Part shown: positions 3,041-50,540 of the stretch, in pieces | How the letters are laid out: every line of letters begins with the position of its first letter | Position numbering within the stretch: the first letter of the stretch is position 1 | The notes under the pieces: model-generated | Databases searched by the model: none | What the model saw: only the letters and a program-made list of their open reading frames with translations | Told to the model about the DNA's origin: nothing | Assembly (NCBI RefSeq): GCF_900098925.1 | Contig: NZ_LT622360.1 | Coordinates: forward strand, 449,136-513,135 | DNA length: 64,000 nucleotides | Source: Bacillus massiliglaciei | Lineage (GTDB): Bacteria; Bacillota; Bacilli; Bacillales; DSM-1321 | Direction: 5' to 3' | Made by a program: the position numbers and the translations under genes

Positions 3041-3054
3041 CGGGCATCTGCCCG
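3041..3054. repeat. left 14-bp target duplication of IS copy 1 (ktrC terminator stem-loop)
   Basis: CGGGCATCTGCCCG is a hairpin preceded by seven A's, the left half of a bidirectional terminator between ktrC and rnjA. The same 14 bases recur at 4620-4633 on the other side of the element. The duplication may extend by AAA/TTT because the element ends in TTT...AAA. Confidence 0.85.
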
Positions 3055-3058
3055 TTTC

Positions 3059-3106
3059 AGGCTGTAGACAAACTCGTGAAAATCGAGTTTATCTACAGCC
3101 TTTTTT
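3059..3106 (+). terminator. inward terminator hairpin at left end of IS copy 1
   Basis: AGGCTGTAGACAAACTCG pairs with CGAGTTTATCTACAGCCT around a 7-base loop, followed by six T's. It would stop transcripts from ktrC before they enter the transposase gene. The same structure, with compensating base changes, is present in copy 2. Confidence 0.75.
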
Positions 3107-3147
3107 ATATTAAAATGGAGGTAACAAATTTACTTGAGGTGACCAAT

Positions 3148-4506
3148 ATGCTTTCCAAATATTCTTCTACTCAAAGAAATCAAATTGAAATGATTGCGCT
3201 GGATGAACTTGTTCCTGCGAACCATTTGGTTCGCAAACTAGAAAAAGCGATCGATTTTTCATTTATTTATTCGTTAGTAGAGGATATGTATTCAGATGTA
3301 GGTCGTCCAAGTATTGACCCGGTAATTCTTATTAAAATGACATTTATTCAGTACATATTTGGTATCCGCTCCATGCGCAAAACGATTGAAGAAATCCAGA
3401 CCAATATGGCTTATCGATGGTTTTTAGGATTCGGATTTCATGATAAAATCCCCCATTTTTCTACCTTCGGTAAAAACTACGAACGCAGATTCAAAGATAC
3501 GGATTTGTTTGAACAGATTTTCTATCATATTATAAGCGAAGCTGCTAAGAAGAAGTTAATCAGTGCCGAACATATTTTTATTGACTCTACACACGTTAAA
3601 GCTAGTGCGAATAAACGAAAGTTTCAAAAGAAAGTTGTCCGTAAAGAAACAAAAGCATATGAACAACGTCTTCAAGAAGAAATCAATCAGGACCGAGAGG
3701 ACCATGATAAGAATCCCTTCCCTCCAGATAAATTCGAAAAAAATGAAACGAAAGAAATCAAAGAAAGTACGACAGATCCTGAGAGTGGATATTATGTAAA
3801 AGATGAAAGAACGAAGCAGTTTGCTTATTCTTTTCACGCTGCTTCAGATAGGAATGGATTTGTATTAGGGACCATCGTAACTCCTGGTAATACGCATGAT
3901 AGTCAGATACTTGAGCCTTTGGTTGAGAAAGTAATGGAAGAAGTTGGGAAGCCTGAAGCTGTTGCTGCTGATGCAGCCTATAAGACACCAGTAATTACAA
4001 ATTATCTAATAGAAAATGACATCACGCCCGTTTTACCTTATACACGTCCGCGTACAAAAGAGGGATATTTTCGGAAACATGACTATGTTTACGATGAGTA
4101 CCATGATTGCTATTTATGCCCGCAGGGCAATGTGTTGAACTACTCAACGACTACTAAGGAGGGGTATCGTCAGTATAAGTCTGATCCTAAAATATGTAAA
4201 GATTGTCCAGTGATCATGAATTGTACCCAAAGTAAGAACCACCAAAAGCTCATTCAGAGACACATATGGGAAGGGTACGTAGAAGAAGCAGATCATCTCC
4301 GACACCATCAAACCATAAAAGATATCTATGCCAAACGTAAAGAAACCATTGAGCGAGTCTTTGCGGATGCAAAAGAAAAGCATGGCATGCGTTGGACAAC
4401 GTTAAGAGGTCTAAAAAAATTGTCCATGCAGGCGTTGCTTACTTTTGGTGCCATGAATTTAAAGAAGATGGCAAATTGGACTTGGGTCAATCCTCAAACC
4501 GGCTAA
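3148..4506 (+). CDS. IS1182-family-like DDE transposase
   Basis: The transposase has 452 residues. The N-terminal region carries GRPSIDPVILIKM (about 50-62) and FSTFGKNYERR, typical of DUF772/IS1182-type enzymes. The catalytic core has FIDSTHVKASANKRK, a YSFHAASD segment, AADAAYKTP, and a C-terminal KETIERVFADAKEKHGMRWT block. A cysteine cluster (CYLCPQG, CKDCPVIMNC) lies near residues 325-355. ATG 3148 is chosen because GAGGTG lies six bases upstream and it aligns with the start of the second copy; an upstream in-frame codon at 2986 would run into ktrC and the element end. The frame is intact, so the element may be active. Confidence 0.9.
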   Translation: MLSKYSSTQRNQIEMIALDELVPANHLVRKLEKAIDFSFIYSLVEDMYSDVGRPSIDPVILIKMTFIQYIFGIRSMRKTIEEIQTNMAYRWFLGFGFHDKIPHFSTFGKNYERRFKDTDLFEQIFYHIISEAAKKKLISAEHIFIDSTHVKASANKRKFQKKVVRKETKAYEQRLQEEINQDREDHDKNPFPPDKFEKNETKEIKESTTDPESGYYVKDERTKQFAYSFHAASDRNGFVLGTIVTPGNTHDSQILEPLVEKVMEEVGKPEAVAADAAYKTPVITNYLIENDITPVLPYTRPRTKEGYFRKHDYVYDEYHDCYLCPQGNVLNYSTTTKEGYRQYKSDPKICKDCPVIMNCTQSKNHQKLIQRHIWEGYVEEADHLRHHQTIKDIYAKRKETIERVFADAKEKHGMRWTTLRGLKKLSMQALLTFGAMNLKKMANWTWVNPQTG

Positions 4507-4567
4507 TTATGGGGCTCGATGAGCCCTCAAAATTAAAAATACAACGATTAAATAGGAAAAATAACAG

Positions 4568-4604
4568 AAAGGCCTTCGGAAGGGATTCCTTCCGAAGGCC
4601 TTTT
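4568..4604 (+). terminator. terminator hairpin at right end of IS copy 1
   Basis: AAAGGCCTTCGGAAGG pairs perfectly with CCTTCCGAAGGCCTTT around GATT. It ends transposase transcription just before the right terminal repeat. Confidence 0.8.
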
Positions 4605-4619
4605 GTCGACAATCTGAAA

Positions 4620-4633
4620 CGGGCATCTGCCCG
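4620..4633. repeat. right 14-bp target duplication, also the surviving rnjA terminator
   Basis: This second copy of CGGGCATCTGCCCG is followed by nine T's on the plus strand and preceded by AAA on the element side. It is also the hairpin nearest the end of rnjA, so insertion left a terminator stem on both sides. Confidence 0.85.
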
Positions 4634-4650
4634 TTTTTTTTTAGCATTTA

Positions 4651-6318
4651 TCAGACTTCCATGATGATAGGAAGAATCATCGGGCGTCTTTTTGTTTTTT
4701 CATAAAGGAAAGGTGCTAATGTGTCTGTAATCTCATTTTTGATTTCTGACCATTGAGTCGTCTTACGCTCCATGACTTTATTTAAATGCTTAGTAATGAG
4801 AGATTGAGCATCATTGATTAAATCGCCGGATTCACGCATATATACAAATCCGCGAGAGATAATATCAGGTCCGGCAGCAATCTTGAATTCCTTCATATTA
4901 ATGCTCACTACGACAACAACAAGTCCTTCCTCAGAAAGGATGCGGCGGTCGCGCAATACGATATTGCCTATGTCGCCGATTCCGCTTCCGTCGATGTAGA
5001 CATTTCCAGAAGGAATCTTTCCGGAAACTTGGGCTGTATTTTCACTCAAAGCCAGTACATCTCCATTGTCCATAATGAAGCAGTTCTCTTCAGGGACTCC
5101 GCAGTCGATTGCATGTTGGGCATGAATCTTCTGCATCCGGTATTCACCATGAATCGGCATGAAAAATTTAGGTTTAATGAGACGAAGCATCAGTTTCTGT
5201 TCTTGCTGTCCGCCATGTCCTGATGTATGAATATCATTTAATGGACCGGAAATCACATCAGCTCCGGCGCGATACAATTGATTGATGGTTCTGGATACGC
5301 TGATTGTATTGCCTGGGATAGGGGATGAAGAAAAAACAACCGTATCTCCCGGGTTTATTTGGATTTGTCTGTGAGTGCCGTTAGCAATCCGTGAAAGAGC
5401 TGCCATAGGTTCGCCCTGACTTCCCGTACACAGGATGGTTACCTTGTTGGCAGGGAGTCTGTTCAGCTGCTGAGCATCGATAAATGTGTCCTTGGGAGCA
5501 ACAATATAGCCTAAGTCCTGACCGATTGATATAGCTGCATCCATACTCCTTCCGAAAACAGCAATTTTCCTGCCATTGGCAACGGCAGCTTCTACAACTT
5601 GCTGAAGGCGATGGATATTTGACGCGAAGGTCGCGAAAATAATCCGTCCATCTACTTTGCGGAAGATATCTTGAATACTGTCACCTACGCGGCGTTCTGA
5701 CATAGTGAAATTTTGGACTTCACTGTTTGTGCTGTCTGAAAGCAGGCAGAGAACGCCTTCTTTCCCGATTTCAGCCATTTTTGTCAGGTTAGCTGGTTCA
5801 CCGACAGGCGTGAAGTCGAATTTAAAGTCACCTGTATGGACAACTTGGCCTGGAGGTGTCTTAACAACAATCCCGTAAGAATCGGGAATGCTGTGGGTCG
5901 TACGGAAGAAGTAAACAGACGTCTTACGGAATTTAATAACATCCTCTTCCTGAATTTCAACTAATCGGGTTTGGCGCAGCAGTCCATGTTCTTCAAGTTT
6001 GTTGCGCAGCAGTCCTAAGGCTAATTTTCCGCCATAGACAGGGATGTTTACTTTCCTTAACAAATAAGGGATTCCGCCAATATGGTCTTCATGTCCGTGA
6101 GTGATGAAAAGACCTTTGATTTTGTCCACATTTTTTTCTAAATAAGTGTAATCAGGTATAACATAATCAATCCCCAGAAGTTCGTCCTCTGGAAATTTAA
6201 TCCCAGCGTCAATAAGGATGATTTCATCCTGGAATTGAACTGCGTATGTGTTTTTCCCGATTTCGCCTAATCCGCCCAATGCGAAAACGGCCGTTTGGTC
6301 ATTTTTAACAAATTTCAT
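4651..6318 (-). CDS. rnjA: ribonuclease J1
   Basis: RNase J1 is a 5'-to-3' exonuclease and endonuclease that drives mRNA turnover and rRNA maturation in Firmicutes. The 555-residue protein is full length. It has a metallo-beta-lactamase domain with HGHEDH at residues 74-79, a beta-CASP domain, and a C-terminal domain. A motif close to [11 protein letters not shown] lies near residues 365-375. It is the second gene of the rpoY-rnjA unit, with the start only three bases after the rpoY stop. Confidence 0.97.
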
Positions 6319-6321
6319 ATA

Positions 6322-6534
6322 TTATCCTAACTCCAATACTTTATAATCTTCATTTAATTTTTCGTATTCTAGATACGCTCCGCTTACTTCAACTACCGAT
6401 TCAACATTAAAAGATTTTGATTTTAATTTCTCCCTGACGTCACGAACGGATGTACCTTCTATAAACATCGATTTCGTATTTTCTCTAATCGGTACCTCTA
6501 TTGCACTTACTTGATAGTATACCTTATAAATCAT
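6322..6534 (-). CDS. rpoY: RNA polymerase epsilon subunit
   Basis: This 70-residue protein (B. subtilis YkzG/RpoY) is the small accessory epsilon subunit of Firmicutes RNA polymerase. It begins MIYKVYYQ and carries the EVPIRENTKSMFIEG segment typical of the family. It is transcribed with rnjA, which follows after three bases, as in B. subtilis. AGGAGAG lies upstream of the ATG. Confidence 0.92.
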   Translation of the reverse strand: MIYKVYYQVSAIEVPIRENTKSMFIEGTSVRDVREKLKSKSFNVESVVEVSGAYLEYEKLNEDYKVLELG

Positions 6535-7245
6535 TTTTATCTCTCCTCACTTTTGATAGTGCTTTTTTCATTATATATAAAAAAAACATTTTTTTCATGT
6601 TTTACAACATCTTACAAATCGAGTTATGAGTGCCTTGCGAAGCAGCCTGACGGGGCTATCTGTCACCCGAAAAATCTCATTTTTAATCGTGGCTGCCAGA
6701 ATAGCTGCTGTTCCTAAAGAACCGTCAAGGTAAATCCCGGTTTCATGTAGTTTTAAAAACGATAAAACAGGAATTTGGGGACTTATGTATGCAGATCGTG
6801 CTGGAATCTCTCTTTGCACTTTACAACATGGAAGAAGCCCTTCGCAAGTTTTTGAAGGGCAGAATGAAAAATATCGCGGATATATGGCTTACTTATAGAC
6901 CGTCGGCTGGATTATGCCTCTTATGCGATAGTTTTTTTTCTTAACAGATCATTCCATTGTTTAAGCAGCTTTTTCCGCAGCTTTTTCAACATGATGATCA
7001 CACTCCCTTACTATTATTGTATAGGAATATTAAATAAAGTAAATAAGTCTTTCTCCCACTTCGCAGCTTTTTTCAAAAATAGGTTCTTATTCCGCAAAAT
7101 CTCCTCTATATGATAATCTTCCCATCAATATTGAGATATTGTGTGTTTGTTTTTCCCAGCCGTACTGAGACTTGACTTATTTCCTAGACAATTATTAAAT
7201 GAGGGCATATGTAAATGTACAGGAAGAAAGGAAAGTGACTGCCCA
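6535..7245. other. 711-bp divergent intergenic region between rpoY and ykrA
   Basis: This gap carries the promoters of rpoY-rnjA (leftward) and ykrA (rightward). A possible tiny minus-strand gene lies at 6921-6992. A hairpin GCCCTTC-N10-GAAGGGC is at about 6837-6860. The sequence TTTACAACAT occurs twice in direct orientation (about 6601-6610 and 6820-6829). A 74-codon minus-strand frame at 6595-6819 has no ribosome-binding site and no recognised domain, so I do not call it a gene. Confidence 0.6.
6921..6992 (-). CDS. possible 23-residue cationic amphipathic peptide
   Basis: The frame encodes MLKKLRKKLLKQWNDLLRKK followed by TIA. It has nine Lys/Arg and one Asp, with Leu/Trp at positions 2, 5, 9, 10, 13, 16 and 17, which would make one face of a helix hydrophobic. 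AAGGGAG lies ten bases before the ATG. Upstream on the same strand are a -10-like TACAAT and a -35-like TTTACT separated by 16 bases (about 7016-7045). I do not recognise the family. It could be a membrane-active or regulatory peptide, or chance; promoter, site and composition together make it worth listing. Confidence 0.4.
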   Translation of the reverse strand: MLKKLRKKLLKQWNDLLRKKTIA

Positions 7246-8022
7246 ATGGATAAAAAGATCGTCTTCTTTGATATTGATGGAACATTATTAGATCACGAAA
7301 AAAAGCTGCCGGATTCTACGAAAACAGCCATTCAAGAATTAAAAGAGAATGGGGTTTTTGTAGCCATTGCAACCGGAAGAGCCCCTTTTATGTTTGAACC
7401 GCTTCGCAAAGAACTGGGAATCGATACATATGTTAGCTTTAATGGACAATATGTTGTTTTTGAAAATGAAGTCATTTATCAGAATCCGATGGATTCAAAC
7501 CAATTGCAAAAAATTAAAGAAGATGCATCAAAAACTGATGAAACTCCAATTGTTTTCATGAATGAGAAGACGATGAAATCAAGTGTGGACCATAGCCGTA
7601 GAATCGCAGAAGCACTGGGGAGCCTTAAGTTTCCCCACCCGGAATCTGATCACCGCTTCCATGAAACCCACCAAATATACCAAGCACTTCTATTTTGTAC
7701 AAAGGAAGAAGAGGAGCGGTTTTTAGATAAGTATGAGAAATTCCAATTTATCCGCTGGCATGAATTTTCTACGGATGTTTTGCCAAAAGGAGGTTCTAAG
7801 GCGGAAGGAATTAAGAAAGTCATGGAGAGAATTGGCTTTGATATCGAAGATGTTTATGCTTTTGGAGATGGATTGAACGATATCGAAATGCTGAAGGAGG
7901 TTGGTCACGGTGTTGCTATGGGCAATGCCCACCAAGCTGTAAAGGACATAGCCGATTATGTCACGAAGGACGTAGCAGAAGATGGCATCCTTCATGGTTT
8001 AAAAGAGTTCGGACTTCTCTAA
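7246..8022 (+). CDS. ykrA: HAD-superfamily Cof-type phosphatase (YkrA-like)
   Basis: This is a 258-residue haloacid-dehalogenase hydrolase of the Cof/IIB class, which dephosphorylates sugar phosphates or related metabolites; the substrate cannot be read from sequence. Motif I is FFDIDGTLL (Asp nucleophile about residue 8), motif II sits in AIATGRAPFM, and motifs III and IV are the Lys in PKGGSKAEGI and GDGLNDIEML. The start at 7246 is chosen by homology of the N-terminus (MDKKIVFFDIDGT), with AAGGA upstream; an in-frame upstream codon at 7141 lacks support. It is convergent with def. Confidence 0.88.
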   Translation: MDKKIVFFDIDGTLLDHEKKLPDSTKTAIQELKENGVFVAIATGRAPFMFEPLRKELGIDTYVSFNGQYVVFENEVIYQNPMDSNQLQKIKEDASKTDETPIVFMNEKTMKSSVDHSRRIAEALGSLKFPHPESDHRFHETHQIYQALLFCTKEEEERFLDKYEKFQFIRWHEFSTDVLPKGGSKAEGIKKVMERIGFDIEDVYAFGDGLNDIEMLKEVGHGVAMGNAHQAVKDIADYVTKDVAEDGILHGLKEFGLL

Positions 8023-8031
8023 TCCAGAAGG

Positions 8032-8067
8032 TCAAAGCCCCTCCGCAAAAAGCAGGAGGGGCTTTGA
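8032..8067. terminator. bidirectional terminator between ykrA and def
   Basis: TCAAAGCCCCTCC pairs with GGAGGGGCTTTGA across a short A-rich loop. It lies between two convergent genes and serves both, though its T-runs are short. Confidence 0.8.
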
Positions 8068-8070
8068 CTA

Positions 8071-8625
8071 TTATCGTTCAATCATGAAAGCATCTTTCGG
8101 CTGAAAAAAAGGATCTTGTTTGTTAATCCGATCATAAAAAAGAATTCCGTTTAAATGGTCAATCTCATGCTGGAAACAAATGCTTGCGAGACCCTTCAGC
8201 CTGATTTTTTCTATTGAGCCGTCTAGGTTAGTGCCCGAAACAGTAATTTCCGCATGCCGTGGGACATATCCTTCGATAGGCCTGTCTACTGACAGACAGC
8301 CTTCCCCGACTGATAAAAAGGATTTTTCTTCTGAATGTTCGATGATTTTAGGATTAAAAAGTGCGTAACTGCATACTCCGCCGTCTTTTTCTTTCAAATG
8401 AACGACTATCATTCTTTTCGAAAAGCCGATTTGGGGCGCAGCGAGTCCTATGCCGGGTCTGATCCCGAATGCTTTGGAAATTTCCGGGTCCTGGCTGCAC
8501 TGAATATATTCCATCATACTTTGTAAAATGCTCCTGTCTTCTTCAGAAGGGGGCATCTTTACTTCTTTAGCAGTTTTTCTTAGAAGCGGGTTATCTTCTT
8601 TAATAATTTCCCATACTTTTAGCAT
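8071..8625 (-). CDS. def: peptide deformylase
   Basis: Peptide deformylase removes the formyl group from the N-terminal methionine of new proteins, using a metal-bound water. The three family motifs are present: GIGLAAPQIG (about residues 61-70), EGCLSV, and QHEIDHLNG with the HExxH metal ligands. The length is 184 residues, equal to B. subtilis DefB (YkrB). I choose the ATG at 8625, six bases after GAGGTG; a GTG at 8634 would lie inside that site. Position next to ykrA matches B. subtilis. Confidence 0.95.
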   Translation of the reverse strand: MLKVWEIIKEDNPLLRKTAKEVKMPPSEEDRSILQSMMEYIQCSQDPEISKAFGIRPGIGLAAPQIGFSKRMIVVHLKEKDGGVCSYALFNPKIIEHSEEKSFLSVGEGCLSVDRPIEGYVPRHAEITVSGTNLDGSIEKIRLKGLASICFQHEIDHLNGILFYDRINKQDPFFQPKDAFMIER

Positions 8626-8728
8626 CTTCAGCACCTCGAGCTTCTGGCGGCCATATTCACTTGTCTATTATATGTCTTATTTTATCAAATCCATATTTAA
8701 ATAACCAGAAGCCGGGCTCCTGGCTTTA

Positions 8729-8753
8729 TAAAAAAGGGGCCGGTACGCCCCTT
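8729..8753 (-). terminator. terminator downstream of the YjcZ-like gene
   Basis: On the minus strand AAGGGGC-GTACCG-GCCCCTT is followed by TTTT. It lies about 130 bases beyond the YjcZ-like stop codon. I see no gene in the stretch between 8626 and 8885. Confidence 0.6.
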
Positions 8754-8885
8754 GTCATAATCGAATTCTATATGGTATCTAAGATTTGAGGTAAACAGGG
8801 ATAAAACGGAGAAAAATAGGGTAAAGAAAATTAGCTCTGCGGCTGCCTTGGTTTTTGATATGCTAGTAAAGCGAAGGGAGCGGAA

Positions 8886-9083
8886 TTACCAGCAAAGACA
8901 AGCCCCGACAATAATCAATAAAATGAACAGAACAATGATCAGCGCAAAGCCGCAGCCAAAGCCGCCTGTTTGCCCTCCGCCATAACCATATCCATAAGCG
9001 GGTGCCGTGGCAACGGGATAACAAGAAGTAGGTGCCGTGGCAACAGGGTAACAGCAAGCATCTTCAAAACCGCCGTGATACAT
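8886..9083 (-). CDS. YjcZ-like small sporulation peptide with repeated N-terminus
   Basis: The 65-residue protein ends in FALIIVLFILLIIVGACLCW, the hydrophobic tail typical of YjcZ/YhcB-type small spore-associated peptides. A Gly/Tyr-rich stretch (YGYGYGGGQTGGFGCG) precedes it. Unusually, the N-terminal half carries a ten-residue tandem repeat containing CYPVATAP twice, encoded by a 30-bp DNA repeat (9001-9023 and 9031-9053). GGAGGT lies seven bases before the ATG at 9083; an upstream codon at 9098 would overlap it. The exact role of the family is unknown. Confidence 0.72.
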   Translation of the reverse strand: MYHGGFEDACCYPVATAPTSCYPVATAPAYGYGYGGGQTGGFGCGFALIIVLFILLIIVGACLCW

Positions 9084-9265
9084 ATGCAATACCTCCATTA
9101 TTTTTTTGTTTCTGCCCTTTCAGGCTCTTATAGCCTATGCGCAAGAGGGCGATAGGTGTAGGCAGCGGCCCAGTTTAAGACAATCTAAAAAAAGATAGGC
9201 GGCCGGATAGAGAGCGGATTCTCTGACGAGCCGTTAAAAAGTAATTTTTTATAGGGGGAATTTTT

Positions 9266-9934
9266 TTGTTAAACGCTGTCAGGATTACCAGTCTATTTAT
9301 TGTGTGTCTCATCTTTTTAAGCGGCTGTATGTTTGGGGCGTCACCGGAAGAAAAAATAGCAAAAACAATCAATAAGACGGCCGAAATTGAAACCGACTTG
9401 AATGCACAGCAAAAGGAACTGGCTGAATTTGAAGAAGAAGAAAATAAATATTATGAAAAAATAGTAAAAATGGGGATGAAGGAATTTGATGAAATAAAAA
9501 AAGTTTCGGATCAAGCCCTTGAAAATATTGATGACAGGGAAAAGAAAATCCAGGAAGAGCAAGATATTATGAATGACTCCAAAAAAGAGTTTGAAAAAGT
9601 CGGAGACCAAATTGAAAAAATAAAAGATGAGAAAATAAAAGACAAAGCAGAGACCATGCAGAAAGACATGCAGGAAAGATATCAGCTCCACCAAGAGCTT
9701 CAAAAAGCATATATAAAAGGACTGGAAGCAGACCGTAAATTATATGAGATATTCAAAAAGGAAAATTTAAAAATGGATGAGCTTAGAAAACAGGTGGATG
9801 CAAGCAATGAAATTTATAAAAAGATAAAGGGAAAAAATGATCAATTCAATAAAAAAACAGAAAGTTATAATAAAGGCAAAACAGAATTCTTTAAAGCCGC
9901 ATCTATTGAGGAGAAGGGAAAAAAGAACGAATAA
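9266..9934 (+). CDS. ykyA: YkyA-family cell-surface lipoprotein
   Basis: A 222-residue predicted lipoprotein: signal peptide with lipobox LSGC at residues 18-21, then a long charged, Lys/Glu-rich region that is almost certainly coiled coil (heptad-like stretches about 45-200). It matches the YkyA family of putative cell-wall-binding lipoproteins, which lies just upstream of pdhA in B. subtilis. The start is TTG with AGGGGGAA a few bases upstream. No enzymatic motif is visible. Confidence 0.82.
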   Translation: MLNAVRITSLFIVCLIFLSGCMFGASPEEKIAKTINKTAEIETDLNAQQKELAEFEEEENKYYEKIVKMGMKEFDEIKKVSDQALENIDDREKKIQEEQDIMNDSKKEFEKVGDQIEKIKDEKIKDKAETMQKDMQERYQLHQELQKAYIKGLEADRKLYEIFKKENLKMDELRKQVDASNEIYKKIKGKNDQFNKKTESYNKGKTEFFKAASIEEKGKKNE

Positions 9935-9941
9935 AAAATTA

Positions 9942-9988
9942 AACCGGATTCAGCACTGTCCACTCAAAGTGCTGGATCCGGTTTTTTT
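9942..9988 (+). terminator. ykyA terminator
   Basis: AACCGGATTCAGCACT pairs with AGTGCTGGATCCGGTT, with one mismatch, and is followed by seven T's. Confidence 0.88.
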
Positions 9989-11556
<1,568 letters not shown>

Positions 11557-11558
11557 AA

Positions 11559-14015: not shown

Positions 14016-14018
14016 AAA

Positions 14019-41160: not shown

Positions 41161-41176
41161 ATAGAAATGATTCGGT

Positions 41177-41999: not shown

Positions 42000-42197
42000 A
42001 TGAAACAAGTCATGAACCAAGCGTTAAAGGCTAAAGAAGTCGAAAAACATCGTGCTGCGGTCTTGAGAATGGAAATGGACTATGAATTAGCAACTCTTTT
42101 TGAAGCGATTGGTGAAGATAATGAAAATAAAAAAACACAATGTAAGAAAAAACTTGAAAAAATCCGTGTGGAATTACTTAAATTGAAAGCATTGTAA
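42000..42197 (+). CDS. ykzI: small conserved protein YkzI
   Basis: A 65-residue helical, charged protein (MEMDYELATLFEAIGEDNE), matching the small YkzI protein found between yktB and yktC in B. subtilis. Function unknown. ATG 42000 is about ten bases after AGGGAGA; ATG 41991 is too close to that site. Confidence 0.7.
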   Translation: MKQVMNQALKAKEVEKHRAAVLRMEMDYELATLFEAIGEDNENKKTQCKKKLEKIRVELLKLKAL

Positions 42198-42272
42198 ATG
42201 AATGATGTTTTTTAATAAGGGAGATATACAAAAGCATGTATAAGCGGGATGATTTGGAAGCATATAATAAGT

Positions 42273-42318
42273 AGGCGGACACTTTATGTATCATCACGAA
42301 GTGTCCGCCTTTTATTTT
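42273..42318 (+). terminator. ykzI terminator
   Basis: GGCGGACACTT pairs with AAGTGTCCGCC, followed by TTTTATTTTT. Confidence 0.88.
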
Positions 42319-42408
42319 TAAACGGAATATGTCAAAATAAAGGTAAATTATTTGTTTATTTGTACCAACTATTTGATTGCTTGTCACAGTAAAGGGCGGG
42401 GTTAAACG

Positions 42409-43200
42409 ATGATACCGATAAAGGAAATGGAAAGTTCAGCAAAACAATGGATTAGGGAAGCGGGACAAAGAATTATTGCGTCTTTCACGACTAAGATTAA
42501 TATTCAGGCAAAATCTAATCCCAATGATCTAGTGACGAATATTGATAAGGAAACTGAAGAATTCTTTATTGGGAAAATCAAAGAAAGATATCCTGGCCAC
42601 AGGATATTAGGAGAAGAGGGAATGGGGGATGAAGTCAGGGACCTGAAAGGGGTAGTCTGGATCATTGATCCTATTGATGGAACCTTGAATTTTATCCATC
42701 AACAAAGGAATTTTGCTATTTCAATCGGTGTTTTTGAAGATGGAATAGGGAAATTTGGCATGGTGTATGATGTTGTGCTGGATGAACTTTATCATGCTGT
42801 TAAAGGAGAAGGGGTCTTTCTAAATGATGTGCCACTTTCTAAACTGACGGATGGCAAGCTGGAAGAGTCCATTGTTTCATTGAATGCAAGCTGGGTTACG
42901 GAAAACAAAAGGATTGATCACCAAGTGCTTGCCCCTCTCGTCCACGATGTCCGGGGGATGAGATCTTATGGTTCCGCGGCATTAGAACTCGCTTATGTCG
43001 CTGCGGGCCGCCTTGATGTCTATATAACCATGCGACTGGCCCCATGGGATTTTGCCGGAGGGGTACTGTTAGTGGAAGAGGCAGGCGGAGAAGTCAGCAA
43101 TGTGTACGGCGAGGAACTAGATTTTATTGATGGAGGCTCTCTGTTTGTTTCAAGGCCAGGCCTTCATGAAGTGATTCTTAATCGATATATGAACAAATAA
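42409..43200 (+). CDS. yktC: inositol monophosphatase family protein
   Basis: A 263-residue metal-dependent phosphatase with the family motifs GEEGMGDE, WIIDPIDGTLNF and APWDFAGGVLLVEEAGG. B. subtilis YktC acts on inositol phosphate and, in vitro, NADP; the true substrate here is not evident. Confidence 0.9.
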   Translation: MIPIKEMESSAKQWIREAGQRIIASFTTKINIQAKSNPNDLVTNIDKETEEFFIGKIKERYPGHRILGEEGMGDEVRDLKGVVWIIDPIDGTLNFIHQQRNFAISIGVFEDGIGKFGMVYDVVLDELYHAVKGEGVFLNDVPLSKLTDGKLEESIVSLNASWVTENKRIDHQVLAPLVHDVRGMRSYGSAALELAYVAAGRLDVYITMRLAPWDFAGGVLLVEEAGGEVSNVYGEELDFIDGGSLFVSRPGLHEVILNRYMNK

Positions 43201-43224
43201 AAAAGGCCGCAGACGGCCTTTTTT
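43199..43224. terminator. terminator between yktC and ylaF
   Basis: AAAAAAGGCCGCAGACGGCCTTTTTT, a compact hairpin with T-runs both ways, lies between convergent genes. Confidence 0.88.
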
Positions 43225-43250
43225 ATTTAAACCAATGAAAATCAAAAAAC

Positions 43251-43433
43251 TTATAGTTTTCCTGATTCCCGCAGTTTTTTCTTTCTCGTAAACCCAAATC
43301 CCATTATAAAAATAATTAAAGCGACTGCAGCCAGAGCTCCAATCCAGCTTTTCACAGCAATAAAAACGCCGATTGAGCCGATTGCGATAGTGGCTAAGAC
43401 AGCCAATAATAGAAAATCCCATTTGATATTCAT
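43251..43433 (-). CDS. ylaF: YlaF-family small membrane protein
   Basis: A 60-residue protein with two predicted transmembrane helices (about 7-24 and 29-47) and a basic C-terminus (FTRKKKLRESGKL). It matches the YlaF/DUF5325 type by size and position, divergent from typA. Function unknown. ATG 43433 follows AGGGGTG; upstream in-frame codons run into the typA promoter. Confidence 0.72.
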   Translation of the reverse strand: MNIKWDFLLLAVLATIAIGSIGVFIAVKSWIGALAAVALIIFIMGFGFTRKKKLRESGKL

Positions 43434-43556
43434 TATTTTCACCCCTAATAATGCTATTGTACCTAATTTTATTATTTGATTCCAGTATGTTTGTGATATA
43501 ATATATAAGTTAATGCTAAAGATACGTTTATACAATTTTATATAGGAGTGAATCTT

Positions 43557-45401
43557 TTGAAATTAAGAGAAAATATTAGAAATATAGCCATTATCGCCCA
43601 CGTTGACCACGGGAAAACAACATTGGTTGACCAATTATTGAAACAGTCAGGTACCTTCCGTGAAAACGAACATGTGGAAGAGCGTGCTATGGACTCTAAC
43701 GATATAGAAAGAGAACGCGGTATTACTATTCTTGCGAAAAATACAGCAGTTCAATATCAAGACACACGCATCAACATTCTGGATACTCCTGGACATGCCG
43801 ATTTCGGCGGTGAAGTAGAGCGAATCATGAAAATGGTTGACGGCGTAGTTTTGGTTGTCGACGCTTATGAGGGCTGCATGCCTCAAACTCGTTTTGTACT
43901 AAAAAAAGCGTTGGAACAAAAACTTGCTCCAATTGTAGTAGTAAACAAGATTGATAAAGATTCAGCCCGTCCGGAAGAGGTTGTGGATGAAGTAATTGAC
44001 CTATTCATTGAATTGGGTGCAGATGATGATCAGCTGGACTTCCCAGTTATTTTCGCTTCAGGTATTGCAGGTACTTCAAGTAAAGATCCAGATCCGGCTA
44101 AACAGGAAGAAAACATGGTTCCATTGTTTGAAACTATCATTGAAACAGTACCGGCTCCTGTTGATAACAGTGAAGAATCTCTTCAATTCCAAGTGGCACT
44201 GCTTGATTATAATGATTATGTCGGCCGTATTGGTATCGGACGTGTCTTCCGCGGAACTATGAAAGTTGGCCAGCAAGTATCCCTTATGAAACTTGATGGA
44301 TCGGTTAAACAATTCCGTGTCACAAAAATCTTTGGCTTTATTGGTTTGAAAAAAGTTGAAATCGAAGAAGCGTACCCAGGAGACCTAATTGCTGTTTCCG
44401 GTATGGAAGATATCAACGTAGGTGAAACAGTCTGCCCGACAGAACACCAAGAGGCATTGCCGGTCCTTCGTATTGATGAACCAACATTGCAAATGACATT
44501 CCTTGTCAACAACAGTCCATTTGCGGGACGTGAAGGTAAGTATGTGACTGCTCGTAAAATCGAAGAACGTCTTCGTCTTCAATTGCAGACAGATGTAAGC
44601 TTAAGAGTTGATAATACAGATTCTCCAGATGTTTGGACAGTTTCCGGACGCGGTGAATTGCATCTATCTATTCTTATTGAAAACATGCGCCGTGAAGGAT
44701 ATGAGCTTCAAGTGTCGAAACCTGAAGTTATCGTCCGTGAAATTGACGGGGTACGCTGTGAGCCGGTTGAGCGCGTCCAGATCGATGTGCCTGAAGAACA
44801 TACTGGAGGCATTATGGAATCAATCGGTGCCCGTAAAGGTGAACTTCTTGATATGATTAATAACGGCAGCGGACAAGTCCGTCTGATCTTTAATGTTCCA
44901 GCACGCGGATTAATCGGATATTCTACAGAATTTCTAACTCTTACACGCGGTTATGGTATCATGAACCATTCTTTTGACAGCTATCAGCCAATGCAGTCCG
45001 GACAGGTTGGCGGCAGACGTCAAGGTGTTCTTGTATCGATGGAAACAGGAAAAAGCACACAATATGGTATTATGGGAGTAGAGGATCGCGGAGTTATTTT
45101 TGTAGAGCCCGGCACTGAAATTTATGAAGGTATGATTGTCGGCGAACATAATCGTGAAAACGATCTGACTGTTAATATTGTTAAAGCAAAACAGATGACA
45201 AATATGCGTTCAGCAAACAAAGACCAAACCACATCCATGAAAAAGCCAAGGATTTTATCTTTAGAAGAAGCATTGGAATACTTGAATGACGATGAATATT
45301 GCGAAGTTACACCAGAATCTATCCGTTTACGGAAAAAGGTCCTCAACAAGAACGAACGTGAAAAAGCAGCTAAAAAGAAAAAATACGCTGAATCAAATTA
45401 A
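43557..45401 (+). CDS. typA: ribosome-associated GTPase TypA/BipA
   Basis: A 614-residue translational GTPase related to EF-G that binds 70S ribosomes and supports growth under stress and 50S assembly. G motifs are visible: AHVDHGKTT (G1), RGITI (G2), DTPGH (G3), NKID (G4). The C-terminal domain with SRGLIGY-like [11 protein letters not shown] is present. Start TTG 43557 follows AGGAGTG and gives the expected [12 protein letters not shown]. Confidence 0.96.
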
Positions 45402-45427
45402 TGAGTAACGTCTGAGGAGGAATGAGA

Positions 45428-45757
45428 TTGGGTATCCAAGAGCGACTGTCATTTTTTGCAGCATTATTCAGGGTAGATGAAAATCCAGAAGCGGGAATGT
45501 GGTATTTGTATATAACGGTTTTCGTATTATGTATAATCGTATACCAACTAGGTTTTGCTAAAAAACTGCCTTTGCTTAAAAATGTTGTGATTTATGCTGT
45601 AATGGCTTTTGGATGCACCTTTCTTTGTTTCTTAGCAGTCTTTTTGCCAATGGCAGAGGCGCTGCTGATAGCAGCCGCCGTTCTCGGCATATACCGGCTT
45701 CGGCTTCGGCAATCGAAGAAAGAAGGCCGGGAAGGTATGACTTCAAGACAGCCATAA
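45428..45757 (+). CDS. ylaH: YlaH-like membrane protein
   Basis: A 109-residue protein with three predicted membrane segments and the family-like N-terminus [20 protein letters not shown]. Function unknown. TTG 45428 is seven bases after GAGGAGG, while ATG 45422 almost abuts it. It follows typA by 26 bases. Confidence 0.78.
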
Positions 45758-45778
45758 TAATTTACAGGCGATATAGAT

Positions 45779-45808
45779 AAAAAAACCGTACAAATGTACG
45801 GTTTTTTT
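45779..45808. terminator. terminator between ylaH and ylaI
   Basis: AAAAAAACCGTACA-AAT-GTACGGTTTTTTT has runs in both directions and lies between convergent genes. Confidence 0.92.
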
Positions 45809-45833
45809 ATGTTCAATAGCTATTCTTTTTAAA

Positions 45834-46034
45834 TTACCATTCCTCTTCTTTTGCTGCTGTTCTATACAGTCGGAATTTACCCGTTTCGATTCGGGCCTTC
45901 GTTCTTTCTTCGATGCGCTGATGGCATTTTTGACACATATATGTATGGATGGGACGATTGCGAAGTTTTTTTGCTTCAGGGCAATCATCGGCGATTGATT
46001 CAATTTCATCACAAATGACACATTTTACTCTCAT
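45834..46034 (-). CDS. ylaI: YlaI zinc-ribbon-like protein
   Basis: A 66-residue protein with two CxxC pairs (CVICDE and CQKCHQR), likely a zinc ribbon (DUF2197). Function unknown; a nucleic-acid or protein-binding role is only a guess. Position next to typA-ylaH matches B. subtilis. Confidence 0.8.
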   Translation of the reverse strand: MRVKCVICDEIESIADDCPEAKKLRNRPIHTYMCQKCHQRIEERTKARIETGKFRLYRTAAKEEEW

Positions 46035-46398
46035 TTATTAAACCCTCGCTTTCATAATCCATTTTAGTATACCATGTTTGATGACAGCCATGAAGGATGA
46101 AAAGCAGTATTAAAATATAGAGCGGTTTTTTACCTTTCTTTGCCTGAAAAGGAGGGCGGTGCGCTGTTTTTCACTCCTCACCATTTTCTAACATATAGGG
46201 TATATATACATTGGAGTAAATTTCATGCTTTTTATTTTGTTAAGCTAAACTAACAAAATTTTTAATAGTGTTCAAATGTTCTTCTATCTTTATTTGCAGA
46301 AACATATATTTTATCATCAGTCTCGTCCGCTACATAAGCTGCAAGGTGAGGGCTTATGATAGGGCTTTTTCGACAATTAGCAGGCAGGAGGCGTCTTA
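46035..46398. promoter_or_regulatory. ylaI-ylaK intergenic region with two inverted repeats
   Basis: ATTTTGTTA (46234-46242) and TAACAAAAT (46251-46259) form a perfect 9-bp inverted repeat. CATAAGC (46333-46339) and GCTTATG (46352-46358) form a second. The region should hold promoters for both genes. The B. subtilis gene ylaJ, which lies here, is absent. Confidence 0.45.
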
Positions 46399-47730
46399 TT
46401 GGGCAAAATCTATGTGTTAGATACGAATGTATTATTACAGGACCCATATGCGATATTCCAATTTGAAGAAAATGAAGTAGTCATTCCAGCTGTTGTGTTA
46501 GAAGAACTGGATTCGAAAAAAAGGTATATGGACGAAATTGGAAGAAATGCCAGGCAAGTATCCAAGCTGATTGATGGTTTCAGGGAAAAGGGGAAACTAT
46601 ATGAAAAAGTTCCTCTGCATAATGGAGGGACACTGCGGATTGAGCTGAATCACAGATCGTTTCATAAGCTGCAGGAAATTTTTGTGGAAAAGACCAATGA
46701 TAATCGGATACTTGCCGTTGCTAAAAATTTATCATTAGAAGAAGAAACAAAAGAAGCAGGAAAAACGGTCATTTTAGTCAGCAAGGATACGCTGGTTCGA
46801 GTAAAGGCAGATGCAATCGGTTTAGAAGCAGAGGACTTTTTGAATGATCGGGTTGTCGAACTGGACCATATCTATACGGGGTTTAAAGAAGAATTTCTGC
46901 CGATTGACAGTCTTAACAAATTTTATTTAAATGGATACATGCCGCTTCAGGACAAGGGCGGAGAAACTGGCCATTATCCTAATCAATTTCTCCTCATGAA
47001 GGATGAGCTTGGCGGTTCCTCTTCAGCAGTTGGAATTATTGATCATGAACGTAAAAATGTGAAAAAGCTGAGGTATGATGGGGAGCATGTCTGGGGAATA
47101 AAACCGAGAAATGTACAGCAGACAATGGCGCTTGAGGCATTACTTCGAATGGATATCCCTCTGGTTACGCTTATAGGGCAGGCTGGAACGGGGAAAACCC
47201 TTCTTGCCCTTGCCGCCGGATTAATGCAGACAGAAGATTTAGGCTTTTATAAAAAGCTGCTGGTGGCAAGGCCGATTGTTCCTGTCGGTAAAGATATTGG
47301 CTATTTGCCAGGGGAAAAAGAGGAGAAACTGAGGCCGTGGATGCAGCCGATATTTGATAATTTAGAATATTTATTTAATACGAAAAAGCCCGGTGAATTA
47401 GATGCCATTCTTGCCGGTATGAGTTCTATAGAAGTGGAAGCCCTGACATATATCCGCGGAAGAAGCATACCGGATCAATTCATTATCATAGACGAGGCAC
47501 AGAACCTTACAAAGCATGAAGTGAAGACGATTCTTACACGGGTAGGAGATCGGAGTAAGATTGTTTTAATGGGGGATCCTGAACAAATTGATCATCCATA
47601 TCTTGATGAATATAATAACGGTCTGACGTATGTTGTAGAGGTTTTTAAACAGGAAAAAATGGCTGCACATGTCAAACTGATCAAGGGAGAGCGGTCTGGT
47701 ATTGCTCAGCTATCAGCTAAATTGCTTTAA
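46399..47730 (+). CDS. ylaK: PhoH-family PIN domain-ATPase protein YlaK
   Basis: The 443-residue protein joins an N-terminal PIN nuclease domain (LDTNVLLQDPYA at residues 6-17, VVLEELDSKK) to a C-terminal PhoH ATPase (Walker A GQAGTGKTLLALA near 259-271, Walker B FIIIDEAQN, MGDPEQIDHPYLD). PIN-PhoH proteins are ATP-dependent RNA helicase/RNases in the family. Start TTG 46399 follows AGGAGGCG. Confidence 0.92.
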   Translation: MGKIYVLDTNVLLQDPYAIFQFEENEVVIPAVVLEELDSKKRYMDEIGRNARQVSKLIDGFREKGKLYEKVPLHNGGTLRIELNHRSFHKLQEIFVEKTNDNRILAVAKNLSLEEETKEAGKTVILVSKDTLVRVKADAIGLEAEDFLNDRVVELDHIYTGFKEEFLPIDSLNKFYLNGYMPLQDKGGETGHYPNQFLLMKDELGGSSSAVGIIDHERKNVKKLRYDGEHVWGIKPRNVQQTMALEALLRMDIPLVTLIGQAGTGKTLLALAAGLMQTEDLGFYKKLLVARPIVPVGKDIGYLPGEKEEKLRPWMQPIFDNLEYLFNTKKPGELDAILAGMSSIEVEALTYIRGRSIPDQFIIIDEAQNLTKHEVKTILTRVGDRSKIVLMGDPEQIDHPYLDEYNNGLTYVVEVFKQEKMAAHVKLIKGERSGIAQLSAKLL

Positions 47731-47758
47731 AAAAAACGGCAAGAGAAGTTCTTGCCGT
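47731..47758 (-). terminator. ylaL terminator
   Basis: ACGGCAAGA pairs with TCTTGCCGT; on the minus strand eight T's follow. It may also stop ylaK transcripts weakly. Confidence 0.8.
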
Positions 47759-47765
47759 CGTCATT

Positions 47766-48275
47766 TTACTTAACAGTGAATGAGCGAACATTCGTGATGG
47801 GGCTGTCCAAATTTGAACCGTTTCCAAAATAAATATGCATTGGACCGCCTTCCTCAGGTTTCAGCGGTTTTCCGTCTTTTGAGAAACCAATAAAGAAGTT
47901 TTCTGCTTCTTCCATTGAAAAAGTGGATTCCTTGCCATCAGCAAGTACAATCACTTCAGAGGTTCCTTTCAAAGGTTCTGCGTTTTTTAAGAAAGGCTTA
48001 AAAGGAATCCCAAATGTTCCCGTCATCAATTTAACTTTCTCAAATTTCCGTTCGGTTTTCAGAGTCGGCGGAAGGATCGCCCCTTCAGCAATTTCCTTCT
48101 GCCAAAACTTAGCAGCTTTCATTGTATAGTTTTCAAGTTCGTCCTTTTCGTCTGTACGCTTATCGCGAAAATATTCATCAATTTCAACTTTCCTGTCATC
48201 AAAAATCCAAACGCCCGGATCGAGAGTGATTGGGTATTGCACTTTGCCGTTGATAAACACGATGGAGGAGTCCAC
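47766..48275 (-). CDS. ylaL: conserved protein YlaL
   Basis: A 169-residue cytosolic protein without an evident motif; INGKVQYPITLDPGVWIFDD near the N-terminus resembles YlaL of related Bacillaceae, which lies between ylaK and ylaN. The GTG at 48275 is nine bases after AAGGGA; the ATG at 48284 abuts it. Function unknown. Confidence 0.7.
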   Translation of the reverse strand: MDSSIVFINGKVQYPITLDPGVWIFDDRKVEIDEYFRDKRTDEKDELENYTMKAAKFWQKEIAEGAILPPTLKTERKFEKVKLMTGTFGIPFKPFLKNAEPLKGTSEVIVLADGKESTFSMEEAENFFIGFSKDGKPLKPEEGGPMHIYFGNGSNLDSPITNVRSFTVK

Positions 48276-48398
48276 ATATAACATTCCCTTCTTTTCTTAT
48301 TCAGTCTTCATTATAAGCAAACTTAATGGAAAAGTCATATTGAGAAGGTCCCCGAGTTTGGGCAAAAAAGACTATTCTTATTTTGTCCGCTGATCTTC

Positions 48399-48427
48399 TT
48401 GCTTTTTTGCCAAACTAAAGGTAAAAT
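48399..48427 (+). promoter_or_regulatory. ylaN promoter
   Basis: TTGCTT (48399-48404) and TAAAAT (48422-48427) are 17 bases apart, about 40 bases before ylaN. Confidence 0.55.
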
Positions 48428-48467
48428 TTATAGATAAGATTTAATCGCTCTGAGCGGGGGGATTTTC

Positions 48468-48749
48468 ATGGCATCTGAAATGCTTGTCAATCATCGTGAA
48501 AAAGCTTTTGCTTTATTAAAAGCAGATGCTGACAAGATTCTAAAATTGATAAAAGTACAAATGGATAACTTGACTATGCCTCAATGTCCTCTATATGAAG
48601 AGGTTCTGGATACTCAAATGTTCGGCTTATCACGTGAAATAGATTTTGCCGTTCGTTTAGGCCTGGTTGACGAAACAGAAGGAAAATCGCTTTTGGAAAC
48701 GTTAGAGAGGGAATTATCTGCTCTTCACGAGGCTTCCTTAAGAAAATAA
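48468..48749 (+). CDS. ylaN: YlaN (UPF0358)
   Basis: A 93-residue helical protein of the UPF0358 family; B. subtilis YlaN is needed under iron limitation and has been linked to Fur. The sequence [20 protein letters not shown] and [16 protein letters not shown] fit. In B. subtilis ftsW follows; here an insertion sequence and then pyc follow. Confidence 0.9.
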
Positions 48750-48767
48750 ATATCCTGCTAAAAAAAA

Positions 48768-48790
48768 CCCAGACAATATAATTGTTTGGG
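48768..48790. repeat. left 23-bp target duplication of IS copy 2 (ylaN terminator)
   Basis: CCCAGACAATATAATTGTTTGGG is a complete terminator stem-loop preceded by seven A's. It is repeated exactly at 50518-50540. AAA/TTT on either side could extend it to 29 bp. Confidence 0.88.
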
Positions 48791-48794
48791 TTTC

Positions 48795-48841
48795 AGCCTG
48801 TAGACAAACTCGAAATTTCGGGTTTGCCTACAGGCTTTTTT
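48795..48841 (+). terminator. inward terminator hairpin at left end of IS copy 2
   Basis: AGCCTGTAGACAAAC pairs with GTTTGCCTACAGGCT, followed by six T's. Relative to copy 1 the base pair near the stem end is swapped (GGC/GCC to GCC/GGC), which keeps pairing. Confidence 0.75.
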
Positions 48842-48878
48842 CTTTTAAAATAATAGTAATAGTTTTTGAAATAGTGTT

Positions 48879-49004
48879 AGTTGATTTTCGTTTCGGCGGA
48901 CGCTTTCCGCGGGCGTGGCCCAATCCTCCTCGTCGCTTTGCTCCTGCGGGGTATCGGCCTTCACGCTTTTCCCGCAGGAGTCGCCGCCTGCACTACAATC
49001 AACT
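48879..49004. repeat. GC-rich MITE-like repeat with inverted ends inside IS copy 2
   Basis: AGTTGATT at the left and AATCAACT at the right enclose a GC-rich stretch with GGCGGACGCTTTCCGCGGGC and CTCCTGCGGGG/CCCGCAGGAG inverted repeats. I recognise the pattern as a repeat common in Bacillus-type genomes. It has no coding capacity. Copy 1 of the element lacks it. Confidence 0.7.
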
Positions 49005-49036
49005 CCTTTCTAAATAAATGTCTGAGGTGAATGGAT

Positions 49037-50395
49037 ATGATGACAAAAAATCAAATAAGTGAACGTGATCAAATGGAAATGATTACAATAGAGCAACTTG
49101 TACCACAGGATCATTTGGTCAGAAAGCTTGAATCAGCTATTGATTTTTCTTTCATCTATCCACTAGTTGAATCACTGTATTCAACACTAGGTCGACCTAG
49201 TGTTGATCCAGTCGTATTAATTAAAATGACATTTGTTCAATATGTATTTGGAATTCGTTCAATGCGTCAAACAATAAGAGAAATTGAAACAAATATGGCG
49301 TATCGTTGGTTTTTAGGGTTTGGATTTCATTCAGAAGTACCGCACTTTTCTACCTTCGGTAAAAATTATGAACGTCGTTTCCAAGATACGGATATCTTCG
49401 AACAGATTTTCTATCGAATTCTTAAAGAAATTGCAGATAAAGGACTACTAAGTGCTGACCATGTCTTCATCGATTCAACACATGTTAAAGCAAGTGCGAA
49501 TAAACGTAAATTCGAAAAGAAGATAGTTCGTAAAGAGACTCGGGCATATGAAGCTAAACTTCAAGAAGAATTGAATCAGGATCGAGTTGATCATGGGAAG
49601 AAACCTTTCCCATCAGATAAATTTGAAAAAGAAGAAGTTAAGGAGATTAAAGAGAGCACAACAGATCCTGAAAGTGGCTATTATGTAAAAGATGAAAGAA
49701 CGAAACAGTTTGCTTATTCATTCCATGCGGCTGCGGACCGGTATGGGTTTATACTTGGGGCGGTTGTGACACCTGGAAATGTTCATGATAGTCATATGCT
49801 TCAGCCACTTGTTGAAAAGGTTATGGAAAAAGTGAAGAAGCCACTTGCTGTTGCTGCCGATGCTGCTTATAAAACTCCTGCGATTACTAAATTCTTATTT
49901 GAACATGAGATTCAACCAGTACTTCCTTATACAAGACCCAAAACGAAAGATGGGTTTTTACGCAAGCACGATTATGTATATGACGAGTACTATGATTGCT
50001 ACCTATGTCCGGAAGGACAGGTTCTAAAATATTCAACTACCACCAAAGAAGGCAAACGCCAATACAAGTCGAACCCAGTTCAATGTGCCAATTGTCCTTT
50101 ACTCGCTCAATGTACAAATAGTAAGGAACACAGAAAAATGATTGAACGTCATATTTGGGCGCAGTATGTGGAGGAAGCAGATCATCTTCGTCATCAAAAC
50201 GATATCAAACAAATATATGCAAGACGCAAAGAAACGATTGAACGTGTCTTTGCGGATGCGAAAGAAAAGCATGGTATGCGATGGACAACCCTTCGAGGGA
50301 TTAAAAAATTGTCCATGCAGGCGATGCTTACTTTTGCTGCTATGAATTTAAAGAAGCTTGCCAATTGGACATGGCAAGCTTCGGCTATGGTCTAA
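49037..50395 (+). CDS. IS1182-family-like DDE transposase
   Basis: 452 residues, the same length as the transposase at 3148 and clearly homologous throughout (FSTFGKNYERR, FIDSTHVKASANKRK, AADAAYKTP, KETIERVFADAKEKHGMRWT). Many substitutions separate the two, about a fifth to a quarter of residues by eye. ATG 49037 lies seven bases after GAGGTG; ATG 49031 would be too close. The frame is intact. Confidence 0.9.
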   Translation: MMTKNQISERDQMEMITIEQLVPQDHLVRKLESAIDFSFIYPLVESLYSTLGRPSVDPVVLIKMTFVQYVFGIRSMRQTIREIETNMAYRWFLGFGFHSEVPHFSTFGKNYERRFQDTDIFEQIFYRILKEIADKGLLSADHVFIDSTHVKASANKRKFEKKIVRKETRAYEAKLQEELNQDRVDHGKKPFPSDKFEKEEVKEIKESTTDPESGYYVKDERTKQFAYSFHAAADRYGFILGAVVTPGNVHDSHMLQPLVEKVMEKVKKPLAVAADAAYKTPAITKFLFEHEIQPVLPYTRPKTKDGFLRKHDYVYDEYYDCYLCPEGQVLKYSTTTKEGKRQYKSNPVQCANCPLLAQCTNSKEHRKMIERHIWAQYVEEADHLRHQNDIKQIYARRKETIERVFADAKEKHGMRWTTLRGIKKLSMQAMLTFAAMNLKKLANWTWQASAMV

Positions 50396-50464
50396 AATAG
50401 AATACTCGAAGAGCATTTTGCTTAAAATCAGACCATAAAATACCTAAGAAAATCTCAAAAAGAC

Positions 50465-50502
50465 AAAAGGCCTTCAGAATGAGACCATTCTGAAGGCCTT
50501 TT
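50465..50502 (+). terminator. terminator hairpin at right end of IS copy 2
   Basis: AAAAGGCCTTCAGAATG pairs perfectly with CATTCTGAAGGCCTTTT around AGAC. Bases differ from copy 1 on both sides of the stem but pairing is kept. Confidence 0.82.
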
Positions 50503-50517
50503 GTCGACAATCTGAAA

Positions 50518-50540
50518 CCCAGACAATATAATTGTTTGGG
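50518..50540. repeat. right 23-bp target duplication of IS copy 2
   Basis: An exact repeat of 48768-48790, here followed by TTTTTTT, so this copy retains the T-run of the original terminator. Confidence 0.88.

Follow-up and report, generated by a model that had tools for sequence, protein, structure and literature searches.

Two elements bounded by hairpin duplications

What sets the length of the target duplication when an insertion sequence enters a hairpin? This question is raised by a stretch of 64,000 nucleotides of the Bacillus massiliglaciei genome (NCBI RefSeq assembly GCF_900098925.1, contig NZ_LT622360.1, positions 449,136 to 513,135 of the forward strand; hereafter the window), in which two IS1182-family elements each stand between two copies of a palindromic sequence. 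From the comparisons reported here, it is likely that in one clade of this family the DDE transposase picks its target by the dyad-symmetric stem-loop, and that attack at the foot of the hairpin duplicates it.

Copy 1 is an element of 1559 bp running from CAG to CTG on the forward strand (3058..4616), and the 20-bp hairpin AAACGGGCATCTGCCCGTTT is found immediately to its left (3038..3057) and again to its right (4617..4636). Copy 2, of 1721 bp, has the same CAG...CTG limits and the same orientation (48794..50514), and is bounded by two copies of the 29-bp hairpin AAACCCAGACAATATAATTGTTTGGGTTT (48765..48793 and 50515..50543). Both direct repeats lie where a first, sequence-only reading had placed them, and the repeat occurred twice in none of 100 shuffles. 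That reading had given the duplications as 14 and 23 bp; their presence and position are borne out, whereas each repeat has to be extended by 3 bp at either edge, to 20 and 29 bp. The three outermost letters that it had assigned to the element differ among copies (TTT, CTT, CTG, TCT, CCT, ATA), and because they vary with the target, the element proper is taken as CAG...CTG. The family assignment follows the IS1182 profile (NCBIfam NF033551), against which the two transposases score 468.1 and 476.3 bits for a cut-off of 270. Both carry DUF772 and DDE_Tnp_1 / DDE_Tnp_1_6 domains with an intact DDE triad, and they are 76% identical to each other.

Duplications of variable length in related elements

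Related elements were then considered, within the genome of B. massiliglaciei itself and in the best 80 of 527 loci obtained from a scan of named genomes (loci, genomes and contigs bear L, G and C numbers, respectively). Duplications were called automatically, the ends being located by their inverted repeat and a direct repeat then being required. Among these 80 loci, 63 exact and four near-exact duplications (L054, L066, L096 and L114) were found. In the own genome, the transposase has 51 matches, of which 16 are near full length (L001-L008 and L011-L018), and exact palindromic repeats bound 12 of these 16 (L002, L003, L005-L008 and L011-L016). When element ends were located by pattern, partial copies included, 42 of 45 adjoined an anchored hairpin, as against 1098 of 20,000 random window positions. 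The pooled set, on which the following counts are based, comprises 76 distinct exact duplications, 13 from the own genome and 63 from the named relatives.

These 76 duplications are 19-42 bp long and take 18 different lengths, in line with the earlier proposal that the duplication follows a hairpin of variable length rather than a fixed stagger. The short fixed duplication of canonical DDE insertion sequences is ruled out by this spread of lengths. Hairpin duplication had also been proposed to be a repeated property of this element group, which holds for 76 distinct cases and for window transposases as different from each other as those described above; fixed-length, non-palindromic duplications were looked for and none was seen among the examined loci of the clade. 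Watson-Crick pairing between the two arms was found at positions 2-8 in 72-75 of the 76 sites and at position 9 in 66, for 19 to 40 expected with shuffled partners. Position 1 pairs in 62 sites where 60.2 are expected, and thus reflects a letter preference rather than pairing. At positions -1 to -4, just outside the duplication, pairing exceeds expectation only slightly (z between about 1.4 and 2.9). In 75 of the 76 sites, the dyad of the hairpin falls on the midpoint of the duplication. Taken as sequence evidence, this suggests that the target is chosen by the shape of the stem-loop and not by a specific stem sequence.

The same counts bear on a quite different origin of the second hairpin, namely a short fixed cut at one hairpin foot followed by host repair, through template switching or hairpin processing, that would duplicate the stem-loop secondarily. 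An element of G104 (L261) could be taken in this sense: its two hairpin copies differ in the two-base loop alone, GA on one side and TC on the other, which are reverse complements of each other and could come from a loop flip or from two mutations. This is a single case. Moreover, repair errors should yield partial or asymmetric copies, whereas 76 of the 81 duplications called are exact and 75 of these 76 are centred on the dyad, so that secondary duplication by repair is very unlikely.

In a quick maximum-likelihood tree of 69 transposases, the duplicating ones form one clade of 43 rows (SH-aLRT 99), inside which none of the 26 other rows falls; some branches of this tree are long, and the true sister among the outside groups is not settled. 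The clade consists of 35 rows labelled as palindromic duplications and eight that are recombined, cut or mismatched, with a hairpin at the readable end. Two of the 35 labels are softer: L124 is cut by a contig end, the matching hairpin halves being found in L125 and L126 of the same genome, and in L183 (G104) the loops differ. Palindromic duplications extend down to 41% transposase identity (G056, G174, G072, G238, G040, G270 and G327), and they are found as well on the Aminobacter plasmid pSR1 (Alphaproteobacterial; L152) and on an Enterococcus faecium plasmid (L151).

Hairpins at uninterrupted sites

Whether the second hairpin arose on insertion can be read from sites that lack the element. 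The joined flanks of an insertion in Peribacillus frigoritolerans (L092) align unbroken to 13 relatives (L266-L278), each of which carries one hairpin. The hairpin is found once in L353 and L354, and twice in the insertion-bearing genome (L355), one on each side of the element. Therefore, at least at this site, the duplication was made on insertion. Different hairpins at the two ends of L104, L130 and L202 are what homologous recombination between copies would give, and one might suppose that such recombination, or two hairpins already in place, made the symmetry without any duplication on insertion. This supposition is refuted for the L092 site by the single hairpin of the 13 aligned relatives, and it has to face 76 exact and mutually different duplications; we regard it as hardly credible.

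The two sites of the window were followed in the same way. At the place of copy 2, all eight orthologous regions fetched align through the place of the hairpin into the T-run, at 68-73% identity and without an element end. At the place of copy 1, five of the ten regions fetched align across, at 63-76% identity, and the other five align in part; one plain hairpin, GAAAAACCGTTCCCATTGGGAACGGTTTTTC, is found there in L341. End-like matches in L341, L350 and L351 were judged on reading to be chance matches.

Position of the cuts

At 30 of the 76 sites, both cuts fall inside A/T runs of at least four letters, where they would be free to slide. At 28 of these 30 sites they are nevertheless mirror-symmetric, for 4.3 expected with uniform independent cuts and 9.0 (maximum 18) with shuffled partners. 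The strand break occurs in the context 5'-AAA|ARR, with A in 84% at position -1, A in 89% at +1 and a purine in 98% at +2 of the 152 half-sites. In 65 of the 76 sites, the stem has its first G:C pair at position 2, 3 or 4. The two cuts are symmetric and fall within the A/T-rich foot, as a rule 1-3 nt below this pair.

This letter preference, present on both strands, is what would be expected if the transposase recognized two inverted A-rich motifs (AAA|ARR) at variable spacing on linear DNA, the hairpins being passengers since terminators have A- and T-runs. The full motif, A|ARR...YYT|T, is present on both sides in 40 of the 76 sites; it is lacking on at least one side in the other 36. As a control, motif pairs at a spacing of 19-42 were collected from 215 kb of background, made up of the window and stretches of the named loci. 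At least five of the six pairs at positions 4-9 were formed in 122 of these 6307 motif pairs (1.9%), compared with 75 of the 76 real targets. Besides, lengths of 19-42 bp span all helical phases, and the dyad-coupled cuts of the 28 slidable sites are not accounted for by two independent motifs. Recognition of a linear motif pair is thus quite unlikely.

Recognition of a folded hairpin has, for its part, a number of observations to set against it. No duplication was called automatically at 13 of the 80 named loci. Eight of these end at contig ends (L105, L120, L124, L125, L126, L128, L129 and L132), L104 and L130 have the unlike hairpins mentioned above, the hairpin copies of L118 differ by an insertion or deletion, and one end is visible in L062 and L119; when the 13 loci were read by eye, every readable end flank adjoined a hairpin. 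In the own genome, an exact duplication is missing from four of the 16 near-full-length copies (in L001 a hairpin adjoins the right end alone, and the loci of L004, L017 and L018 yielded no right end), and three of the 45 ends lack an anchored hairpin. The duplication of L131 is off-centre by one base, and an E. faecium element within the clade (L149) has a hairpin at one end alone. At the L092 site, no match to the hairpin was found in G013, G017, G018 and G030: an unrelated insertion sequence with two reading frames occupies the place of the target hairpin in G013 (L349, C1:2735300-2737400), and in G017, G018 and G030 the sequence differs after the place of the hairpin. The window's own empty sites are diverged in the relatives, so that they show the position and not an identical hairpin. 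The clear letter preference at the cut means that recognition is not purely structural. Finally, at least one further base pair is found outside the duplication in 56 of the 76 sites, and the full palindrome span correlates weakly with duplication length (r = 0.24).

From these last two results, it follows that cutting does not take place at the foot of the longest palindrome that can be drawn. A duplication length equal to the full palindrome length is ruled out by the same correlation. The sequence-only reading had described the duplicated unit as the complete stem-loop: the hairpin is indeed duplicated, although not in full, since the palindrome usually runs past the cut. It had further suggested that the transposase recognizes an extruded cruciform or the stem boundaries and cuts at the base. 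The dyad-coupled cuts (75 of 76 centred, 28 of 30 symmetric) agree with the first part of this suggestion, whereas a cut at the base of the complete stem is contradicted by the 56 sites in which pairing continues.

Among the models considered, cutting at the foot of an extruded hairpin has the most support from these data, the cruciform itself being putative. The target would be the four-way junction of an extruded cruciform, or else a hairpin in transiently single-stranded DNA. On each strand, a transposon 3' end would attack close to the 5' foot of the hairpin, after which repair of the gaps would leave the hairpin copied on both sides. At such a junction the distance between the two attacked phosphates would be constant for stems of any length, and the variable length of the duplication would thereby be explained. 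The geometry of the products fits pathway b of Wan et al. (2017; PMC5678879), in which strands are transferred to the 5' feet of the extruded hairpin.

A duplication whose length is set by the hairpin clashes with the textbook rule of a fixed stagger for each transposase. It is an old debate whether terminators and other short perfect hairpins extrude as cruciforms in living bacteria, and elements that label the foot of every hairpin they enter would open extrusion in vivo to test.

Opposite outcomes within the family

A different product was found outside the clade. The elements of G312 and G239 are about 29-32% identical, have the ends GAGGCTGTCC or GGGGCTGTCC and lack a palindromic repeat. 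For seven of their eight insertions, the joined flanks align to places that hold an extra 20-32 bp exactly at the junction, and each of these extra stretches, read by eye, is a hairpin absent from the insertion-bearing site. The place of comparison is in a congener in six cases and is a paralogous place of the same genome for L210; for the eighth insertion (L207), no alignment across the junction was obtained. The deletion was read from the closest subjects, some more distant ones aligning with several gaps, and it is from the empty sites of the G312 and G239 elements that this outcome is known. Among 28 elements outside the clade without empty sites, a slight excess of residual-arm pairing was found beside the element. 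Hence, as read from sequence comparison, groups of one transposase family that meet the same kind of target either duplicate or delete the hairpin.

In these related elements the reciprocal choice would be made and the hairpin would be lost, as published for IS1272. One may tentatively go further, at somewhat less than even confidence, and regard IS1182-family transposases as junction-directed recombinases that dock on the four-way junction of an extruded terminator and join both transposon ends to either of its two symmetric strand pairs, the clade of the window using the 5' feet (duplication) and the others the 3' feet (deletion), with the choice fixed by the protein. If this were true, the family would provide natural, polarity-resolved probes with which cruciform extrusion could be followed in living cells. 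With the opposite outcomes, a scheme that had been drawn as hypothetical (Wan et al., 2017, Fig. 13) also becomes a concrete question of mechanism, for which natural enzymes can be compared.

Terminators as targets

Most targets are terminator-like. With a strong tract defined as at least 6 of 8, a right T-tract alone is present at 24 of the 76 sites, a left A-tract alone at 17, both at 20 and neither at 15. That terminators predominate among the targets probably reflects their abundance: in these genomes, no other short, strong palindromes with A/T-rich feet would be as frequent. In Cytobacillus oceanisediminis (L067), the target lies directly after a 5S rRNA gene, and the target of a deleting element of G239 (L204) lies directly after a tRNA gene, the flanks being read by eye in both cases.

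Targets of this kind would also be met if the hairpin were offered not as a duplex cruciform but in single-stranded DNA, on the lagging strand, or where a transcription complex has stalled at the terminator, and the positions of L067 and L204 after stable RNA genes would suit such an origin. Strand transfer must, however, strike both strands symmetrically, and the elements show no clear preference for one orientation with respect to the T-tract (24 versus 17). We hold this source of the hairpin to be unlikely, though it is the alternative to which we give most weight, and retain the extruded cruciform as the preferred target.

According to the sequence-only reading, a working terminator also remains on either side after insertion. 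This is not supported as stated: in both window copies the upstream hairpin keeps only the T's that belong to the repeat, three of them before CAG, and its U-tract is shortened. The elements have hairpins of their own, located by eye, which may serve as terminators. At the left end of copy 1, a forward-strand hairpin that contains the terminal inverted repeat is followed by a T-run (3059..3101), and the right end has an A-run, a hairpin and a T-run (4568..4604). Copy 2 has a left-end hairpin followed by a T-run on the forward strand (48795..48836) and the same right-end arrangement of A-run, hairpin and T-run (50465..50502). The copy number is high, with 16 near-full-length copies here and at least 12 loci in one Neobacillus drentensis genome; the use of terminators, which adjoin gene ends, may explain how such elements multiply with little damage.

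Relation to known systems

It is already published that IS1182-family members target hairpins and that IS1272 deletes them. IS1272 and TnSha1, of the IS1182 family, target stem-loops, often terminators, that differ in sequence and size, and IS1272 removes all or part of the hairpin without duplication (Furi et al., 2016, PMC4923244; Wan et al., 2017, PMC5678879). Both studies cite Siguier et al. (2015) for palindrome targeting by some members of the family. In Wan et al. (2017; PMC5678879), duplication of the whole stem-loop is drawn only as the hypothetical pathway b of Fig. 13, and non-palindromic targets are reported for three copies. The two end strings looked for were not found in the text of PMC4923244 and PMC5678879.

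IS1272 and TnSha1 thus resemble the clade of the window in being IS1182-family DDE elements with stem-loop targets; the difference, as far as the published description of IS1272 goes, is that IS1272 deletes the hairpin whereas the clade duplicates it. The two features described for IS1272, absence of a target duplication and loss of the hairpin, were not found in this clade, while hairpin loss was found in seven of the eight G312 and G239 insertions. This loss is the same replacement as that published for IS1272 and TnSha1. The clade-wide hairpin duplication and the split between duplication and deletion within one family appear new, no report of them having been found in a limited literature search.

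Other named elements are related at various distances. ISEfa7-like elements of E. faecium plasmids have a transposase about 55% identical and fall inside the duplicating clade. One plasmid element annotated as IS1182 family (L151) has a palindromic sequence of 23 bp shared at its ends, or 21 bp if CAG...CTG ends are assumed. The ISEfa7-like L149 differs by its hairpin at one end alone, and no description of target duplication was seen for it. ISSau3 (L155, annotated as IS1182-like) is about 27% identical to copy 2 of the window and is among the 26 rows outside the duplicating clade. IS1182 and ISSep1 of staphylococci belong to the same family by annotation and are known here as listed matches. 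Elements that target repetitive extragenic palindromes and IS1111 relatives that target attC sites also insert in or at palindromic DNA, but they use different enzymes and specific target sequences.

Further features of the elements and their copies

The transposase of copy 1 has 452 amino acids when read from the ATG after GAGGTGACC (3148..4506, forward strand); this start codon is our choice, the listed open reading frame opening farther upstream, at 2986. The transposase of copy 2 has 454 amino acids (49031..50395, forward strand), and its residues D148, D277 and E404 are invariant in an alignment of 22 sequences (A1). Terminal inverted repeats of the CAGAYTGTMGACAAA type are present, with 11-16 matches out of 18 at nearly all loci where a hairpin duplication was found. 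A sequence search of the PDB with the transposase gave no meaningful relative (best E 0.21). With Foldseek, the single match under 0.001 was Mos1, whose TM-score of 0.18-0.23 is not meaningful alone.

Several rearranged copies were noticed. In G269 (L223 and L225), a distant IS1182 transposase gene (about 25% identity) with its own ends lies inside outer element-like ends that have a palindromic duplication, an arrangement that is nested or hitch-hiking; five copies of the inner unit were fetched. In B. massiliglaciei, a nested insertion is found at C16:170998-173945 (L009, L011), where an element of the copy 1 type stands in a hairpin just past the transposase stop of an element of the copy 2 type, and has a 19-bp palindromic duplication, GAATACTCGAAGAGTATTT. 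At about 192.6-194.7 kb of C17 (L012), a 2047-bp composite with two right ends consists of a copy-1-type element and an inverted, internally deleted piece of the copy 2 type, and a single palindromic duplication of 28 bp bounds it, as would be expected had it transposed in one piece. Short, internally deleted derivatives resembling miniature inverted-repeat transposable elements are found at C12:13213 (L033), C16:306748 and C17:194407, and just past the right end of the window (L025). Those with both ends read (L033 and L025) likewise lie at hairpins.

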